Assembly: GCA_025558095.1 (NCBI GenBank) | Contig: JAIVFI010000037.1 | Location: forward strand, 248,001 to 312,000 | Reading direction: 5' to 3' | Length of the DNA stretch: 64,000 bases | DNA from: Hyaloraphidium curvatum | Lineage: Eukaryota > Monoblepharomycota > Hyaloraphidiomycetes > Hyaloraphidiales > Hyaloraphidiaceae | Shown: positions 24,020 through 33,132 of the stretch, piece by piece | Position numbering within the stretch: position 1 is the stretch's first letter | Layout: each line of letters begins with the position of its first letter | The notes under the pieces: generated by a model | Databases searched by the model: none | What the model saw: only the letters and a program-made list of their open reading frames with translations | Told to the model about the DNA's origin: nothing | Position numbers and translations under genes: made by a program

Positions 24020-26751
24020 ATGCTGAGCACCGAAGGCGCGGCACTCGCGCCGCGATTCACGCGGAAAGCGAAGCTGCCAGAAGCGCGACAAACGAGGCCG
24101 GCCGATGACGGCGTGCCGCTCCCCGTCCGGCTCGCGAAGCTGAAGGTACCCGAGTCCCTGGTTCCGCGCTCTCGCCGCTCCAACTCCCCGGAACGGCAGC
24201 GGCTCGTCCACGAGACCATTATTGCACATCGGAAGGACTTTCTGACGGCGTTTCAGTACTGCTCAAACCTGGTGCAGGACGTGGAAGCGGCATTCGGGAC
24301 CGTGGATGTGGGACTCGCCGAGGTCCTCAAACCGCGATGAATGTGAACCATTCGTGGGATTCCTGCAGGCTCAGGATGAAGAGAGAATACCGGGCGATCT
24401 TGTCGGGGAGATCCAGTCGCTCCGAGTCCTCGCGCAGGTGCGGGGACGGTGTCCGCGCGATGGACCCACTCTTGACGACGCGTGGGACAGCTGCACCACA
24501 CGTTGCAGAACTTTGACAGTCTCTTGGAGATTGGAGAATTCAAGATGGCCGCCGCAGCCGTCGTGCAGATGGTGGGTCCGGCGTTCGTGGCCAAGACCAG
24601 TCCACCAACACTCTCTGGCGGAAGATGGATCTTTTCGAGCAGCTCGTCGATGCCAACGGCTTGCGGTGCGACTTCAACATCTATCAGCTGCTGAAGAACG
24701 ACTACGCTGCAAAACGCGCCCGCCTCACCCAGTATCTGAACGAGATGTTCGCCGCGGGCATTTCCATCCACCAAGAGGGTTCAAGCGCAGAAGTCCAAGT
24801 CTCCTTCCGCCTCGTCGGTGAGCAAGGACTCGACCTTATCTTTTCCACTCAGCGCTGAACGAGTCGTCCGTACAGGGCCGCATGCCAAGAAGTACTACGA
24901 ATCGTCGATCCCCCTCGAAGACGTCCTGAGCGCCCTTTACCACCTCGAAACCCTGGAAGCAAAGTTCCAAACTGTAGCCACGCGTCTGACTCAGCTGTGC
25001 ATCGCTCCGTGCATTTCAAGTGCGAAGCTGGACATTCAATGTTCCAAGAGCAAGCTGCAGGCCGTCTTGAAGCTTCAAGGCGGCGCCAGAAAGTCCAGGG
25101 GACCAGGCCAATCTCCAGGTGGGTCAAGCTTCGCTCGTGCTATGCTGAATTAATCCTGTCTGGTGCTGCAGCTTTGGACCAGGTCCTCGACCGAATTCTC
25201 CAAATTTGCAGGTTCGTGTCCGAGGACGTCTTCCCAGCACCACCACCCAGCGACGGGCATTTTCCGACTGAAACACTGCTTGACGTCTTTGGCCGGACCT
25301 GGTGGCCATCACTGTGGAGCTCCGTGAACGAAAACGTCCTGACGCCGTTGGTGCCCGAGGACGTCCTTTCATTGAAGCACTTTCAAGAGGAGCTGAGGCC
25401 AAAAGTCCTCGAATTTGGGAACGCTTTGGAACAACTAGGTGGCTTGCCTCTCGCGCCGGGGTTCAATTCGACCCATTGATTCTCCGACCAGGGGTGCTTC
25501 CCGCCGGCAGGCGTGAGCTGGACGACTTTGTGGAGAACATCGCGGCTCTGAGCACCGCGAAACGGCGCGCATCGATCCTTGCGACTGCACGATCCGTCCT
25601 GCTCAACGAAGACATAAATATGGTGGAGGTCAGCGACGCAACAGAAAGAGGTGAGATCCCTACGTGTGCGCAACGCTCCGGTTCGCAGCTAAAGCAGAGG
25701 TCCGCAGGCGGCGTATTCAACCTGAATGGAGGCAAGAAGGACCCGGGCTTTGATCAGGCGAGAGGCAAGGAGGGCGCCGAGGGCAAGGCCGGCCTGGAAT
25801 CGGGAGAAGTCGACGCATTCAAGGTGCCTCGATGTTCCGTGTCATCACAAGTCCACGCAGTGGTCGAGATGGCGTATCAGATGGTAAACGAAGCCACCTC
25901 CAGCGATTCCAAAGCGTGGGTTTTGCTTGAGCATAGCCCTGTCGCGCGGGACGGCGGACCCTTAACGTTCATCGTTCTGCTGCCCTGCCTGCCAGTGCGA
26001 TCGAGCTGTTCTACTGCGCTCGCGACCTCTTCGACCTCATGCGCTGCGTTCGGCCGATGTGCCACGCGGACCCGGCGACGGCGACGATCGCAAGCACTCT
26101 CCTCTTCCACAACGATTGCCTCTACGTCTCCCATCACCTCCTCACGATCGGCTACCAGTACAAAAGCCAGCTGCCGCCCCCGCTCAATGAGACCGCAACC
26201 TTTGTCGACATGATTCCGTCTTTTCGGAAGCTCGGGGAGACGGCCCTGCGTGGACTCTTGGTACGTGGATCGAGAAAGTGCATCTCGTCGGGCTGACAGC
26301 AGTCCAGCGCAACCACAGGGACTACATCTTGGAGTGCTTGGTGGATGCCGATCTCCTGCGGGAGCTTCAAGTGCAGGAGCGATTCGAGAAGGCGGAAAGG
26401 TGCTTCAAGGACGTGATTGCGAAGATCGAAACCCTGTCCCGTTCCGCCAAGGTGACTCCTTCGCACGACCGTGCAGTTCCGTGCTGATCGTGCTATGCGC
26501 AGAACATCCTTCCGAGCGAGCTGTACTTGAGCGTGATCGGGCAGCTCGTCGACACGGTTGTCGAGCAGGTGCTCCTGATGGTTCCCCAACTGGACACGAC
26601 TTCGTGGCAAAACTCGTTTCAGGTCAAGTACATCCTCAACCTCGCCGCGGTTCGGATCGAACGCTGGTTCGAGATCTCGAGGAGGGAGGGGAACAAGACG
26701 ATCACGGAAAAGGTTGGGGACCTAGTTCCCGAACGCTTCTGCCTCGCCTGA
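24020..26751 (+). CDS. ZW10: ZW10 / Dsl1-complex kinetochore and ER-tethering protein
   Basis: Helical-rod protein of the ZW10/Dsl1 family, acting in RZZ (kinetochore) and/or Golgi-to-ER vesicle tethering. Recognisable blocks in order: an N-terminal helical region (RLVHETIIAHRKDFLTAFQYC..LVQDVEAAFG), LFEQLVDANGLRCDFNIYQLL, VLSALYHLETLEAKF, EDVFPAPPPSDGHFP, then LDDFVENIAALSTAKRRASIL, FYCARDLFDLMRCVRP, HHLLTIGYQYKSQLPP with ETATFVDMIPSFRKLGE, and NILPSELYLSVIGQLVDTVV. Many short introns. The ATG at 24020 (MLSTEGAALAP) is the nearest to the conserved region; an in-frame ATG at 23910 is possible. After the last block only about 55 residues follow before the stop at 26749-26751, shorter than animal ZW10. 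Confidence 0.82.
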
Positions 26752-26872
26752 CAGGGTTTTGATGATTGCAGGCCCCCATCTCGAAACGAGTTGCGTCTTG
26801 GGAGCGCTTTTCGCGCCTCGTCGGCGCTCCCCCCGCGTGAGGTGGGGTCGGAATATATAGTGCTCCGTTATT

Positions 26873-26886
26873 AGAAACCCGCACTC
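26873..26886 (+). repeat. Left copy of a 14-nt inverted repeat flanking the Fanzor-like gene
   Basis: AGAAACCCGCACTC at 26873-26886 is the exact reverse complement of 32122-32135. Further inside, CGCTAC recurs 13 nt from the left copy and 14 nt from the right copy, so the terminal similarity extends imperfectly. Candidate terminal inverted repeat. No clear target-site duplication is visible. Confidence 0.55.
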
Positions 26887-27397
26887 TCTAAGCGTCCCAC
26901 GCTACAGCTAAAGTCCTCGTTCTCTCTGTCGCTAACTCGGCACTACAGCGTCTAACATCGTGCTCCGCCATCTTGACGTCCTGATTGTGTCCATTTTTTG
27001 AGCTGGCGGATGGCCCCAGCATTCGGTCGCCGTCTCGCTGCATCGGTCCCCAACGTCCGTGCGCAGCTTAATGCTTCGTTGTCATGCACAGAGGGATTTT
27101 ACAGTCCGGAGACGTTCCGAGGTGGCAGAGGCCGGATTTGTAGCGCGTTCGCGAGGAAGAGGTGCGAACGCAGACCGCGGTCCCGAACAGCACAGCACGT
27201 CACCCCTCCGACCCGCTACAGCTCGTGATGGCGCACCGGGATACGGTGGAGAACAGCGCTGGCCGCCAGTAGTCTCTTACGCGATTCCTGGCTCCACCAA
27301 ACGTCGTGGGATGGCCGTACGGGCCGCTCCGCGTGGACCGCCCCAAGACGAGTAGTACTGCCGAGCGAACCCCGACCTGCAAACTCATCCCGCTGAA

Positions 27398-27904
27398 ATG
27401 GCACCTAGGCGGCGCCAGGAGCATCTCGGAAGGCGATGCCGACGGCGCGGCTCCGTTTTGCGCCCGATCGTCGTCGCTACGACGACCGAAGTGCCGCGGT
27501 TGTGTCGAACCGCTGCGCTCCCGTTTCGCGACGTGCCATCGCAGGCATTCCACAGAAAGATGGCCGAGCTCCCAGAATTGCACGTCGGAAACGACTCGAA
27601 GGGGATCTCGGCCGCTCAGACGCCGATTCTGGGGAACCCGCACCGCATCGGTTGGGCGCTTAACCGTGTCGCCCCGCCGGAGCACTGGAAGCAATGGAGG
27701 TCCGGTGGCCGCGGTCTTTCCTCTTTTCCAGCTCAAACGATGATCCGCTTCGTCCGCTGGTGCTTGGAACCGAGATTGACAACCGCCGGCGAGAGGACGA
27801 AGCGGCAAAGGTCTGCCGCTGAATGCCCACGGGAGGCCCGGTCGCGGCAGGTGCAGTTGCAGGAAGAGCGAAAGCGAGCACGAGTCATTTCGCGTGAAAT
27901 CTAG
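27398..27904 (+). CDS. Hypothetical open frame upstream of the Fanzor-like gene
   Basis: A 168-codon frame beginning MAPRRRQEHLGRRCRRR, arginine-rich and without a recognisable domain. Frames on both strands are open here, as expected by chance at this GC content, so coding status is doubtful. It could be an unrecognised 5' exon of the nuclease gene, an element-borne accessory gene, or nothing. Confidence 0.15.
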   Translation: MAPRRRQEHLGRRCRRRGSVLRPIVVATTTEVPRLCRTAALPFRDVPSQAFHRKMAELPELHVGNDSKGISAAQTPILGNPHRIGWALNRVAPPEHWKQWRSGGRGLSSFPAQTMIRFVRWCLEPRLTTAGERTKRQRSAAECPREARSRQVQLQEERKRARVISREI

Positions 27905-28255
27905 GGCCCTCGACGGAGTGGGGCGACAGGCCTTTCGGAAACCGGGGGTCGGGAGCCCGAAGGCCCGAGCGGGGCGGAGTCGCCGACACCCCTGGTCAAA
28001 TGGCTGGTTAAATTGCTGGGCAAATAGGAAATGCCCGTTGCGGCAGACCGCCATGAAGCCGATAGGAAACGGAAACTGGGAAGGGCTTTTGGGCGCGTGA
28101 GACGTGGCCTTGGGTTTAGCGCCGTGTCGGAACGCAACGCGCCGCCGCGCGGCAGCGGCATGGCCGGGCACCAGGTACACTTTTGCACTCCCGTGGACAC
28201 CGCGTCGGACATTTTGGGCCAGTAGCGGCGACCGCGGCGCCGTGGCCGGCCCGCG

Positions 28256-31200
28256 ATGGCCGCGCACGCGGCTGCGTGGGCCAATTTCCTACCCGTACTG
28301 CCTTTGCCGTGGAGCGTACTGTGGAACAATCGGATTCACGGCCGCGATGTCGACATCACGCGGCCGCCGGCGGTGCAGTTCGCCATCTGGAACAACATGC
28401 CTGGGGTCGCTGTTGAAGCCGACGCCTTCAACCTCCCGGCGAACCTGGCCAGGTTCTGCCCAGTTCACGGCAACGCTTGTCCAGCTCCGCAGCAGCTTGC
28501 AGTCGGTCAGATGGTCCAGTTTGTGCAGGGTATTCCGTTCTGCAATTGTAAGTATGAGCCGCCTGCTACCCGACATACGGATCTCTCACACCCAGCGCTC
28601 GCAAGCCGCTTTCCACCAAGGCTTCGAACCGGCATTGGACGTGTTCCTTGGAACCTGCCCAGTCGCCCAACTTCGATGTGAGCAACTTCCGCATTTCCAC
28701 AATGCGCTTGCGGGGGCTTTTGGCTTTATCCTTCGTTTCTACGACGCGACCGCGACGATCCCGGAGCGGCACGTATCGGTGAGTGCGATTTGTGCCGTGT
28801 TTTTCTTGAGTCTGACGCCTCTGCGCAGCATGCACGATACGGCGTGGCGTTGGTCTTTGTCCCCCTCAGCTCTCTTCGTCCGACAACCCTTGTGGCCGCT
28901 GATGTCCCCGACGCATGGATCGAGAGGCCGACGACGGACGTGGTTTTCGACGGGATCCAGGCGTTCTACGGGCGTGCCACCATCTGGGACGACAACATGA
29001 TCTACGGCAACGCCCCGAACAAGACTTGCGTTGACTGCTCCCGCCGTGGCCACCCGAGCAAAGCCTCGTTCTACTGCGAGCAACATAACCCCCGTGCATT
29101 GAATGGCATCAAGGCCTTCGAATGGGATCACGAGGGTGGGCTATACTGGTACCGACCGTACGTCGTGAAGACGAGTTTGGACGCTTTCTGCCGGCATGAG
29201 CCGCTCCGTGGGCTTTTCAAGACCATTTCGGCTGCTACAACCATGGTTTGCTTTGAAGGAGCCCTCTTCCTGCAGTTGTTTTTGTCGCTCTACCCGTTGC
29301 GGTCCGCGGATGCAACCGGGATGTGGGAACCGATCGTGGACCTGAATTTGTCGGATTCCCAAATCCAGAACCTGTTCAAGGCGTTCTATTTCCCGTCGGA
29401 CGATGGCTACGGCAGGGTTTTACAGCTCCTAGACCGTTTCCATCCCCTAGCGCGCGAGGTATTTGTTCAGCACTACCTACCATGCCGGAAAGGAAGGGCG
29501 ACCTGGCCCGGGGACTGGCCTGCAGCCCGCGCGGTCTGCGACAACTTTGACTCTCTGCCAAATCAAGTTGCTGCCAACGTTCGCACGCAGTTCGTGGGCG
29601 CCTGGAAACGCCACGTCGTGTACAACATCGGGGACTGGACCGTGTGGTGGATCAAGGAGCGGCTCAAGGAGCGGATCACGGCTGCTGCGCAGTGGCCAGC
29701 GTGGATGCTTGGCAAGCTGGCCTGGGGCATGTACAACTACTTCACGCTGGGCCGCTCGGACAACCTGGACATCTTCGAAAGGCGCAAGGCGGAACGAAGA
29801 GCAGCAGCTGCTTCGCGGAGGGAGGGAAGAGCACCTGCCGAAGCGGCGGTCCCGGCCGACCACCCGTTCGAGCTACCGACTTTCCGGGCGGAAGATGCCT
29901 GTGGATGGCCACCGTCCACGCTCAACGTGGCGAACCGAATCATTGCTGAGCTGCGCCGGAAGTTTGGACCCGTCGATTGGAGCAAGACGGAGACGGGCGG
30001 CCTGATCTGCAAGGATAACGCCTTCATCGGCAACTACATCCGCTGGCTTAGGTACCTTTCGCTTGCGCGCGAGGAGGCCAACGCGAAGCAGTTTGCGCTT
30101 GTCCCGCTCTACGACTGGTCCAACAAGTTCGTCCTCGTCGATACGATGGTGCTGTATTGGTGCCTCAGGATCGTGGAAGATAGGGTTGGTGGTCTGTGCG
30201 GGACCAAACTGCTTTCTTTTCTGACGCCTAGCTCTACACCGCAAACAGCTCCGTGCATCGGAACAACCCCCGCCGGCGGACCTGAAGCTGCCCAAGACCC
30301 CGGCAGTCTTCTTCGCCGACCACGAGAATCTGCACAACTGGCACCTGTATCTGTTCAACGTCGACGGAGTCTTCCGCAACAAGAGCCCCGAAGCCCGGCG
30401 CAAGCGGAACCGGCGCCGCAAGGAGCAGCGGAGGCGGAGAAAAGCGCAGGAGGCGCAGAGCGGGCAGCGGTTTCAACACAAGCGGGGAGGGTGGAAGCGC
30501 GTGAAGAAGAAGAAGGTGGGCGACGGATCTCCGGATTTCGCCGTACTGGCAACCCATGAGAACTGCTTCCGCAGTCAAAGTCTCGGCCAATACCAGGCGA
30601 TCTCCGCGATTCCAGTTCGATACCCGAGTCCGAGATACCCCAAACAACACCTCCTCCGCCCCCCTTCCCCAAGCCAAAATCCATAGTCTTCGACGGGTCG
30701 TTCGTGGTCAACAACAGCGACGTCTCGATCCAGCTGCACAAGCGGAAGAGAACGTCCGCAACGTCGGACAGGAGCGCTTTCGAGGGTGCCGATGAGGGCT
30801 TCACGCGGGACCCGAACGGGCGCAGCAAGCGCACCGGCACGGGTGCGTGGGTCGGGGACGTGGACAGAATACCGGATCAGGTCAAGGAGAACTTCGACGT
30901 CTTCCCGGACCACACCATCGTCGCGGCGATCGACTTCGGCTGGAAGAATGTAGCAACGTGGGGCTGGACGACGCTGGGCAAGATCAGGGCCGCCGGCAAT
31001 CTCCATGTCTACGACAAGAACCCTCTGGACAACCCGCTACTGTACGACGTGGAGGAGGTCGTTGCAGTCGAGGTGGACGGCGTCGTCATGGACCCCGAGG
31101 GAAGGCCGCTGCTGGCGGCCGACGTCGAGCAGAGAGCGATGTTTGGCGGCACGACGGTCTGGGTCGACGACCCGATGCTCATGGACACGGGTGTCGTCGG

Positions 31201-32081
31201 GATGGACCGCGCAAACATGCCCTGGGTCGCGGACGACGTCGAGGAGAAGGTGGTGGACGGGTGCAAGGTCTACTACCGGAAGGTGAACAAGGGCAACGTC
31301 AAGCTCACCTTTGGCAAGGTCACGGCCGGCAACATCAAAAGGCATACGGGCGCTGCGCGCCGAGAGAAGGAGACCGCCGAGAAGGTCGAGCAGGTCTTTG
31401 GTCGGAAAGACCCCTTCGCCAACCTCGGTTCTCCGCGCACCTGCGTTGTCTCGGAGCTCGAGGAGCACCTGCGCAAGGTGTTCGAAAAGCTGGACCGTGT
31501 TTGGAAAGTGACGCTCGACCCTGATATCGTCAAGCTGCGATTCAAGAGCTACATCGACAAGCAGCGGTTCTACCAGAATACGCTCCCGGCCTGGGTGGTG
31601 GGAGGCAAGGAGAACCTGCGCAAGCCCATCCTCCTGTACCCTGGTGCGGCGAGCCTCGTCTTCAAGAACCAGCGCGGCAACATGCCCGCCTCTGTTCGCA
31701 AGTGTCGCCGCGGCATCGCCCACCGCCTCAACCCCGGCATGTGGCAGTTTGCCATGGACACGGGCGAGGAGTACACCTCTCAAGTGCACGCAGCGGCACA
31801 CTCGTGGGACCACCCCGAGCGATCGCTCGTCTGCATCAACCACGCCGAGGACAGTCCCGGCAAGCGCCCACGCGACCTCCAACGTTGCCAAGGAACAACG
31901 TGTGCGTAACGGTTTCCTTCTGCGCGAGGGGTGAAGCTCACGATCCCCTATAGATTGCTGTGGAGGGCACGTGGCCCGGGACAAGAACTCGGTGAAGGAC
32001 ATCATGAGCGTGGGGCTCAGCAACGTCGTCTTCGGTAAGCGGCCCACGATCTTTACCTACGAATACTGGCGAAACCGTTGA
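28256..32081 (+). CDS. Fanzor/TnpB-like RuvC nuclease, predicted 1168 aa, six exons
   Basis: Predicted eukaryotic RNA-guided nuclease of the Fanzor (TnpB-related) type. Six exons keep frame: 28256-28547, 28663-28778, 28829-30188, 30232-30515, 30575-31901 and 31954-32081. The introns are 43-115 nt. The split RuvC core is C-terminal: RuvC-I AAIDFGWKNVATW (Asp about 804), then RGNMPASVRKCRRGIAHR and DTGEEYTSQ (Glu about 1082/1083, where Fanzors carry a relocated catalytic Glu), and RuvC-III CCGGHVARDKNSVKDI (Asp about 1136). The zinc-ribbon half after TSQ has HX3H (VHAAAH) where CX2C is usual. An N-terminal cysteine cluster CVDCSRRGHPSKASFYCEQH lies near residues 203-222, and a basic linker (RRKRNRRRKEQRRRRK) joins the halves. 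Much longer than typical TnpB. The call rests on motifs and their order. The last splice and N-terminus are the weakest points. Confidence 0.68.
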
Positions 32082-32113
32082 AGACAGTAGCCAGAAAACT
32101 AGTAGCGGCGTCG

Positions 32114-32132
32114 AACCTGCGGAGTGCGGGTT
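32114..32132 (+). ncRNA. Candidate 3' hairpin at the right end (possible guide-RNA scaffold)
   Basis: AACCTGC (32114-32120), loop GGAGT and GCGGGTT (32126-32132) form an uninterrupted 7-bp stem with one G-T pair. It lies 33 nt after the nuclease stop and overlaps the right inverted repeat. In known OMEGA/Fanzor loci the guide RNA overlaps the 3' end of the nuclease gene and runs toward the right element end, so this is where a scaffold would be expected. No transcript evidence is available. Confidence 0.25.
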
Positions 32133-32135
32133 TCT
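32122..32135 (-). repeat. Right copy of the 14-nt inverted repeat
   Basis: GAGTGCGGGTTTCT is the exact reverse complement of 26873-26886. It sits 41 nt after the nuclease stop and 88 bp before the QCR6 start codon, and would bound a unit of about 5.26 kb containing the nuclease gene. Confidence 0.55.
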
Positions 32136-32222
32136 GATGTAGCCGCACGAGGAAAATCCTTTAGACCTTCCTTTCCGTGGCGCCAAACTTCGTCCGTGCC
32201 CTGACCGCGTATCCTGGGCGCC

Positions 32223-32885
32223 ATGTCTGAAGAACCTGAGGACCCGAAGCCCCAGCTGGTCGAGGAGTGTGAGTAGGGGGTCAACGGAGGCACACGGGCT
32301 CGGTCAGGGATGTGTGCAGCGTCGCCGTGGCGTCGACGTCTCTGCTTCCCACGGACCTGGGGACATCTTGCCCGCTGTTGACGACAATTATGGGCGCTCA
32401 ATTGTGCTGGAGTCTCTGCGATTGGCGCCGGCACCTTCGGACGGGAGGATGGCGGATGGCGTTGGGTCTCGGAGGCATTCGAACTCAACCGTGGGTCCGA
32501 TCCGCCAGGCAAGGAGTCGGACCACTGCAAGCACCTCCAACACGTCTATGAGCACTGCGCGGAGAGGTGGGCTCGTCCGGAAGCCGCGATGGACGGGCTC
32601 GGAGCCTGATTCGGACTGGTCGGACACGCAGGATCGAGAAGGAGGGAGGCGAGCAGAACTGCGTGCTGGAGTTCTTTGACCTCTTGGAGTGCATAGTACG
32701 TGATGGTGCTCGATGACTACTCGTTCTCTCTAACCCGCGGTCGCGCGTCCCCCTAGGATCACTGCGTTGGGTGAGTAGGGTCAGGTAACTCAGGGTAACG
32801 TCTCTGACCGCGGTCCACATGCTACCTCCTGGTGGGAATCTTGCTATCGACTTCTAGGCCGAAGCTGTTCAAGCAGCTGGTGTAA
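32223..32885 (+). CDS. QCR6: Cytochrome bc1 complex hinge protein (QCR6/UQCRH)
   Basis: Small acidic subunit of mitochondrial complex III that bridges cytochrome c1 and cytochrome c. Exon 1 from ATG 32223 reads MSEEPEDPKPQLVEEC. Middle exons contain CKHLQHVYEHCAERV and QNCVLEFFDLLEC, the twin-cysteine helical hairpin. The last junction joins DHCVG to PKLFKQLV (intron GTGAGT...TTCTAG), ending at TAA 32883-32885. The CX(n)C pairs and the DHCV..KLF tail are family signatures. Several short introns, with the middle boundaries approximate. Confidence 0.85.
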
Positions 32886-33132
32886 ACGGTAGTGACTAGC
32901 ACGACAGCCTTACTCCTTTGGGTGCCGCCAGCGAATCGGCTTCTCGCGTCAATCTAGGACGTCGATACTGTTTAGGTCGCTGTCTGTGAATGATTTTGTC
33001 CAATGCTCGCGGGCGGATGCGCAGTCGAAGCACGGCGGCTGACTGGGTCGTGGGGGCGCTTGCAGTGACTCGACTTCCGTGCCCGCAAACTCCAACCTCA
33101 GCAGCGAGCCACTCCCCCCGCCGGAGCCCGCC

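Follow-up and report, generated by a model that had tools for sequence, protein, structure and literature searches.

What is a large spliced gene doing between housekeeping genes of the fungus Hyaloraphidium curvatum, and what carries it? The stretch analysed here (the window) comprises 64,000 nucleotides (nt), C37:248001-312000 of an assembly of 31.9 Mb in 55 contigs, and all unprefixed positions below are window positions. The initial annotation had described the gene as a Fanzor-like, TnpB-related nuclease in a fungal housekeeping neighbourhood. The latter is true of the neighbours (ZW10, RRM and a probable QCR6, the last being our own reading), but it overlooks that the gene is the cargo of a 5.3-kb transposon located between ZW10 and the probable QCR6. 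We consider it quite probable that the gene product is a DNA endonuclease of a divergent Fanzor type that is guided by an omegaRNA, and that the carrier is a eukaryotic DNA transposon with inverted ends and insertion at TA.

The identification starts from published motif rules. Excerpts of PMC3627910 and PMC10711439 give the Fanzor motif as D-x(125,275)-[TS][TS]xx-[C4]-x(5,50)-RD, together with a rule that combines DPG at RuvC-I, which is near exclusive to Fanzors, with a relocated Glu. The four motifs quoted in the initial annotation were all recovered in the order and frame described, the Glu-Glu pair being E1083/E1084. Zinc ligands aside, the motif is found as the strict string in the public relatives P0003 (743 aa) and P0005 (804 aa) and in relaxed form, with an insertion allowed, in the window; none of 20000 shuffles of P0003 matched the relaxed string, and chance motifs were rejected on this basis. 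The Glu expected six positions ahead of the zinc site is likewise present: GEEYTSQVH in the window and GEDY[TS]SQ.C in P0003, P0005, P0002 (588 aa) and a copy on contig C45. The same four sequences have DPG at RuvC-I, where the window reads DFG and the copy on C13 reads DYG. The window departs from the C4 zinc finger expected after [TS][TS]xx: its first ligand is His and not Cys, and the CxxC pairs are lost (TSQVHAAAH...CINH...C...YCC vs TSQLCSKRH...CVKH...C...YCC in P0003). Because DPG and the C4 zinc finger are both missing, we regard the protein as a variant of the Fanzor type and not as a plain member. The relocated Glu is replaced by Gly in C13 and kept in C1 (DNA read directly). The N-terminal Cys/His cluster that had been pointed out earlier is real: C-x2-C-x4-H-x7-C is common to the window and the C31 and C39 copies. 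An insertion of about 80-90 aa after RuvC-I (30986-31300) is shared by the window and C13; P0003, P0002 and C45 do without it.

The family could be traced in protein databases and in the genome itself. With exon 5 as query four proteins were found, and an alignment as query gave three, P0005 being the only new one; each protein database search scored only the 8000 candidates sharing most words. The public relatives are the three proteins named above, from sources labelled jgi or lgn, and two that belong to H. curvatum itself, P0001 and P0004. When another Fanzor of the genome served as query, no match was found among the 8000 candidates scored, and in one scan of viral contigs with P0003 none of the 600 stretches that matched the pattern encoded a relative. 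Within the genome the family occurs in the window and on C13, C1, C31, C45 and C39, the other copies being partial: C13 lacks the N-terminal half, C1 has the C-terminus only, C31 and C39 have an N-terminal part and C45 a C-terminal part. From their flanks, C31 and C45 look like one copy split by a long terminal repeat (LTR) element, since one 477-bp repeat follows C31 and precedes C45 (or the reverse) with GAGG on both sides, provided that the repeat is taken as TG...CA. The identical 477-bp LTR at this break belongs to a gypsy-like element (L037 5080-5556, L009 5428-5904). Just downstream of the truncated C39 copy, a 970-aa frame encodes a reverse transcriptase domain (L038 1397-4306; PF00078, E 4.6e-8).

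Profile and structure comparisons point in the same direction as the motifs. Using hhalign, the family was joined to another Fanzor family of the genome (E 3.6e-6, probability 87%), in a match that spans GAA..F to RD and beyond. A profile of four family C-termini gave weak PDB matches at E ≤ 1: TnpB-like L79 (0.022, the best single stretch of which reached E 2.1) and two LaTranC entries (0.67 and 0.73). When two other-family sequences were added, eight entries were found: GtFz1 (0.0033), SpuFz1 (0.0098), LaTranC (0.093 and 0.11), PpFz1 (0.22), Cas12m (0.5) and two ribosomal eS7. Single-sequence searches of the PDB with P0003 and with the window C-terminus gave no match, SpuFz1 included. A whole-family profile had two PDB matches (E 1.3 and 1.9), both unrelated; among phage families only the transposase phrog_506 came up (E 0.23 and 0.09), and the predicted structure of P0003 (predicted local distance difference test 42.4) was not used. 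A template-free model, of low confidence, looks RuvC-like and has SpuFz1 as best match. The initial annotation had named acidic residues lying apart, or no RuvC fold, as grounds for rejection, and neither was seen in this low-confidence model.

The carrier is recognisable by its ends, both of which recur in other elements. On the left, 26862-26992 is 86-87% identical to elements at C21:385733 and C21:631082 and partly matches C44; the window element has retained its TA flank on this side only. The 17-nt inverted pair is weak evidence by itself, because it is one of 42 inverted pairs in 7 kb. Within the left part sits a fragment of a further repeat family, which has counterparts elsewhere (27020-27806 at four other places, 85-86%; 27369-28130 at two more, 71%), and no transposase was found in that part, where five open reading frames (ORFs) hit no Pfam family below E 0.08. 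The right end is shared with Fanzor-less elements of about 0.95 kb ("ghosts") at eight sites, seven of which were read, C10 being known from its match only. Identity over 32077-32148 is 96-97% for C21:386, C44 and C10, 92% for C21:630 and 86-88% for C34, C5 and C1:1075, the eighth (C29) having 97% over 39 bp of the right end; the C13 and C1:1267 copies share 42 bp of it (93%). In ten aligned ends identity stops at GCAC, followed by TA in six and GA in the window, while C29, C13 and C1a differ. At the left, the elements of C34, C5, C1b and C29 start with TA followed by GTGGGGC; no TA is visible at the left ends of C21a, C21b and C44. In C13 (L007 7652-8639) and C1 (L008 4971-6009) a ghost-like stretch comes after the gene end and includes the last-intron region a second time. 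In the ghosts, reading by eye shows a small ORF (MRARKRKK...) that follows ACGTGGC repeats (L054, ~1656-1841).

For Spizellomyces, parts of PMC10432273 report 134 ghost loci and SpuFz1 RNAs extending 14-15 nt into the flank, as well as 75 conserved nt at the right repeat that recur downstream of the Fanzor stop codon. Because the anatomy found here equals that of the SpuFz1 omegaRNA and its ghost loci, we predict an omegaRNA scaffold at 32077-32148 and a guide from 32149 onwards, on the basis of layout and conservation. A terminal hairpin of 12 pairs forms in 5/5 distinct rows, with one pair changed on both sides and one on one side. An RNA model (R1) matches the window (by construction), C13 and C1, and none of nine other loci including C31, C45 and C39. 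Most likely the window copy works like a Fanzor: the element's own right end would yield a ~72-nt RNA, which the protein would bind and which would continue beyond the element so that flanking host DNA serves as guide, and the RuvC site (D805, E1083, D1137) would cut the matching target, chiefly the empty donor site, upon which repair would restore the element, to its benefit. The eight gene-less elements with the same right end may supply further guides in trans.

Several results weigh against this interpretation. No curated family reaches its cut-off for the gene or its relatives: the best PF07282 score is 22.3 bits (cut-off 26.3) and the best guided_TnpB score 14.3 (cut-off 100), both for P0003. 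PF07282, although below cut-off, is the top Pfam match of P0003, P0005 and the C45 C-terminus; the window exon, P0001, P0002 and P0004 have no reported PF07282 match, guided_TnpB also gives nothing for the window exon, and none of the 17 places in a genome-wide PF07282 search (E ≤ 1) is the window or a relative. That the protein is unrelated to Fanzors, its motifs being accidental, would accord with these scores, but is highly improbable given the shuffles and the profile and structure comparisons. The low confidence of the structure model is a further point, as are two properties of the right end: its hairpin covariation score was reached by 42/500 shuffles, and the window copy folds no better than shuffled sequence does (z -0.44). 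The right end might thus be a transposase-binding end only, with the guide RNA of a true Fanzor encoded elsewhere or lost; it includes the inverted end, and Rfam gave nothing up to E 1 on 26500-33000. We consider this unlikely, as the conservation (86-97%) reaches 45 bp inward of the inverted core and the conserved stretch begins at the stop codon, like in the SpuFz1 loci.

The state of the copies bears on whether the protein is still functional. According to the Nei-Gojobori method (NG86), window and C13 differ by dN 0.23 and dS 0.88 (nonsynonymous and synonymous divergence) over 385 codons, i.e. dN/dS ~0.26, and C13 and C1 by dN 0.095 and dS 0.12 over 74 codons. These values fit a window lineage under constraint with C13 and C1 decaying, the activity of the window copy not being demonstrated thereby. 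A Fanzor relic, with the right fold and cutting lost, in an element that is decaying and encodes a dead or solely RNA-binding protein, would explain the change of DPG to DFG, the altered zinc ligands including the His, the nested repeat upstream, the lost right TA and the decayed appearance of C13 and C1, the former without relocated Glu. Yet exons 3-6 are wholly open, the D-E-D residues are kept, the window-C13 ratio is low and three ghosts match the right end at 96-97% identity, which makes a relic quite unlikely and a working Fanzor the preferred reading.

Once spliced, the gene has an open frame between ATG 28256 and the stop codon at 32079-32081, and it can be read as six exons joined in frame by GT-AG introns, as annotated initially. 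The model gives 1169 aa, so that the earlier size (about 1168) and residue numbers (Asp804 etc.) are near-identical but one too low. The exact gene model is not fixed, because 36/36 alternative splice-site combinations tried remain open (1155-1188 aa). Intron 5 is backed by homology, splicing giving LQRCQGTTYCCGGHVARD vs LQLCHSETEYCCGWLWARD in P0003 and LQRCEGTRYSCGAHVARD in the NCBI protein P0001, and introns 3 and 4 by the frame change along the P0003 match. Exon 1 has a coding-like GC content by codon position (0.66/0.46/0.73); no relative matched exons 1-2, the C31 and C39 copies aligning only from about the CxxC motif near 29000. Homology within exon 3 begins there too, and the in-frame ATG 28997 is a possible start. 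Most Fanzor1 proteins have 600-700 aa according to part of PMC11423790, and since the homologous part from ATG 28997 is 958 aa, the doubled size stated earlier for the protein relative to most Fanzors is to be taken as a maximum.

Table 1. Features of the transposon and its Fanzor-like gene (window positions)
Feature	Position	Strand	Remarks
Transposon, 5289 bp	26860..32148	+	left end TA then GTGCTCCGTTATTAG; right end GATGTAGCCGCAC then GA
Left inverted end, inner part	26870..26886	+	17 nt, 94% complementary to 32122-32138
Right inverted end, inner part	32122..32138	+	pairs with 26870-26886
Nested piece of other repeat family	27020..28130		in left part
Exon 1 (tentative)	28256..28547	+	open frame, GTAAGT donor, coding-like composition; relatives without match
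Exon 2 (tentative)	28606..28778	+	open frame only
Exon 3	28829..30188	+	N-terminal region, C-x2-C-x4-H-x7-C; matches C31, C39, P0003, P0002
Exon 4 (ends uncertain)	30232..30573	+	weak match to P0003 287-359
Exon 5	30687..31901	+	RuvC-I through zinc site; matches P0001, P0002, P0003, P0004
Exon 6	31954..32081	+	carries CCGGHVARDKNS, RuvC-III Asp; matches P0001, P0003
Introns 1-5 (GT-AG)	28548-28605, 28779-28828, 30189-30231, 30574-30686, 31902-31953	+	
RuvC-I Asp D805	30932..30934	+	in AIDFG; aligned with DPG Asp of P0003, P0005, P0002, C45
Relocated RuvC-II Glu E1083	31766..31768	+	in GEEYTSQVH; aligned with GEDYTSQLC (E-x6-C) of P0003
RuvC-III Asp D1137	31980-31982	+	exon 6
Predicted omegaRNA scaffold, 72 nt	32077..32148	+	stop codon to right end; ghost conservation; SpuFz1 layout
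Predicted guide (host flank)	32149..32163	+	from SpuFz1 14-15-nt extensions

The H. curvatum genome holds several Fanzor families. A very young repeat (L044 1-5086, L043, L029-L036; on C3, C5, C6, C7, C11, C15 and others) looks like another such family, because each copy has an E-x6-C frame (NEYLTSQMCSWCG); identity reaches 99.7-100% over 5.1 kb in L043 and over 2.2-kb stretches in eight further copies. C2 and C5 carry further divergent Fanzor-like genes with E-x6-C (L039 3737-5809, L041 2889-6503, L040 2574-5623), the zinc regions of which exceed the PF07282 cut-off, and a 972-aa frame in L042 (C14:724943) has a sub-threshold PF07282 match (23.2 bits).

The locus would extend the Fanzor kind to a branch missed by curated family models, in an early-branching fungus, and the element offers natural targets and a guide RNA that is predicted in concrete terms. 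Literature searches returned, among the matches listed, nothing on Fanzor together with Hyaloraphidium, and no match joining three of the terms Fanzor, chytrid, omega RNA, MITE (miniature inverted-repeat transposable element) and non-autonomous. If the short elements give guides in trans, the service that Fanzors render to transposons could be studied in a simple setting. Tentatively, and with considerable doubt, one may go further and picture a eukaryotic branch of RNA-guided nucleases in its own right, marked by the His in the zinc site and by a large zinc module at the N-terminus. A single coding element would then provide the protein for at least eight elements that lack it and the ends of which act as genome-encoded guide RNAs in trans, so that one Fanzor would protect many insertion sites.

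Among the closest known systems is SpuFz1 of the Spu-1 element of Spizellomyces punctatus (Fanzor1), which shares the RuvC layout with relocated Glu and is the best match of the low-confidence template-free model. Spu-1 also has, as described in parts of PMC3627910 and PMC10432273, inverted ends, TA, gene-less ghosts and a conserved stretch of ~75 nt from stop codon to right end. Unlike SpuFz1, which has 633-638 aa in one ORF and, according to the same excerpts, 134 ghosts, the window gene specifies 958-1169 aa with introns and has eight ghosts of ~0.95 kb, DFG and a His in the zinc site. The Fanzor1 proteins of Guillardia theta and Parasitella parasitica (GtFz1, PpFz1) resemble it in the relocated Glu and zinc region that align to the C-terminal profile, and differ from it in that the window N-terminal region is longer; PpFz1 likewise has a RuvC insertion (PMC11423790, in part). 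With prokaryotic TnpB and Cas12-type nucleases the family shares the RuvC core and zinc region (PF07282 and, weakly, guided_TnpB), and unlike in the usual TnpB the DPG of the relatives and the Glu six residues before the zinc site correspond to what a portion of PMC10711439 describes as the Fanzor/pro-Fanzor state.
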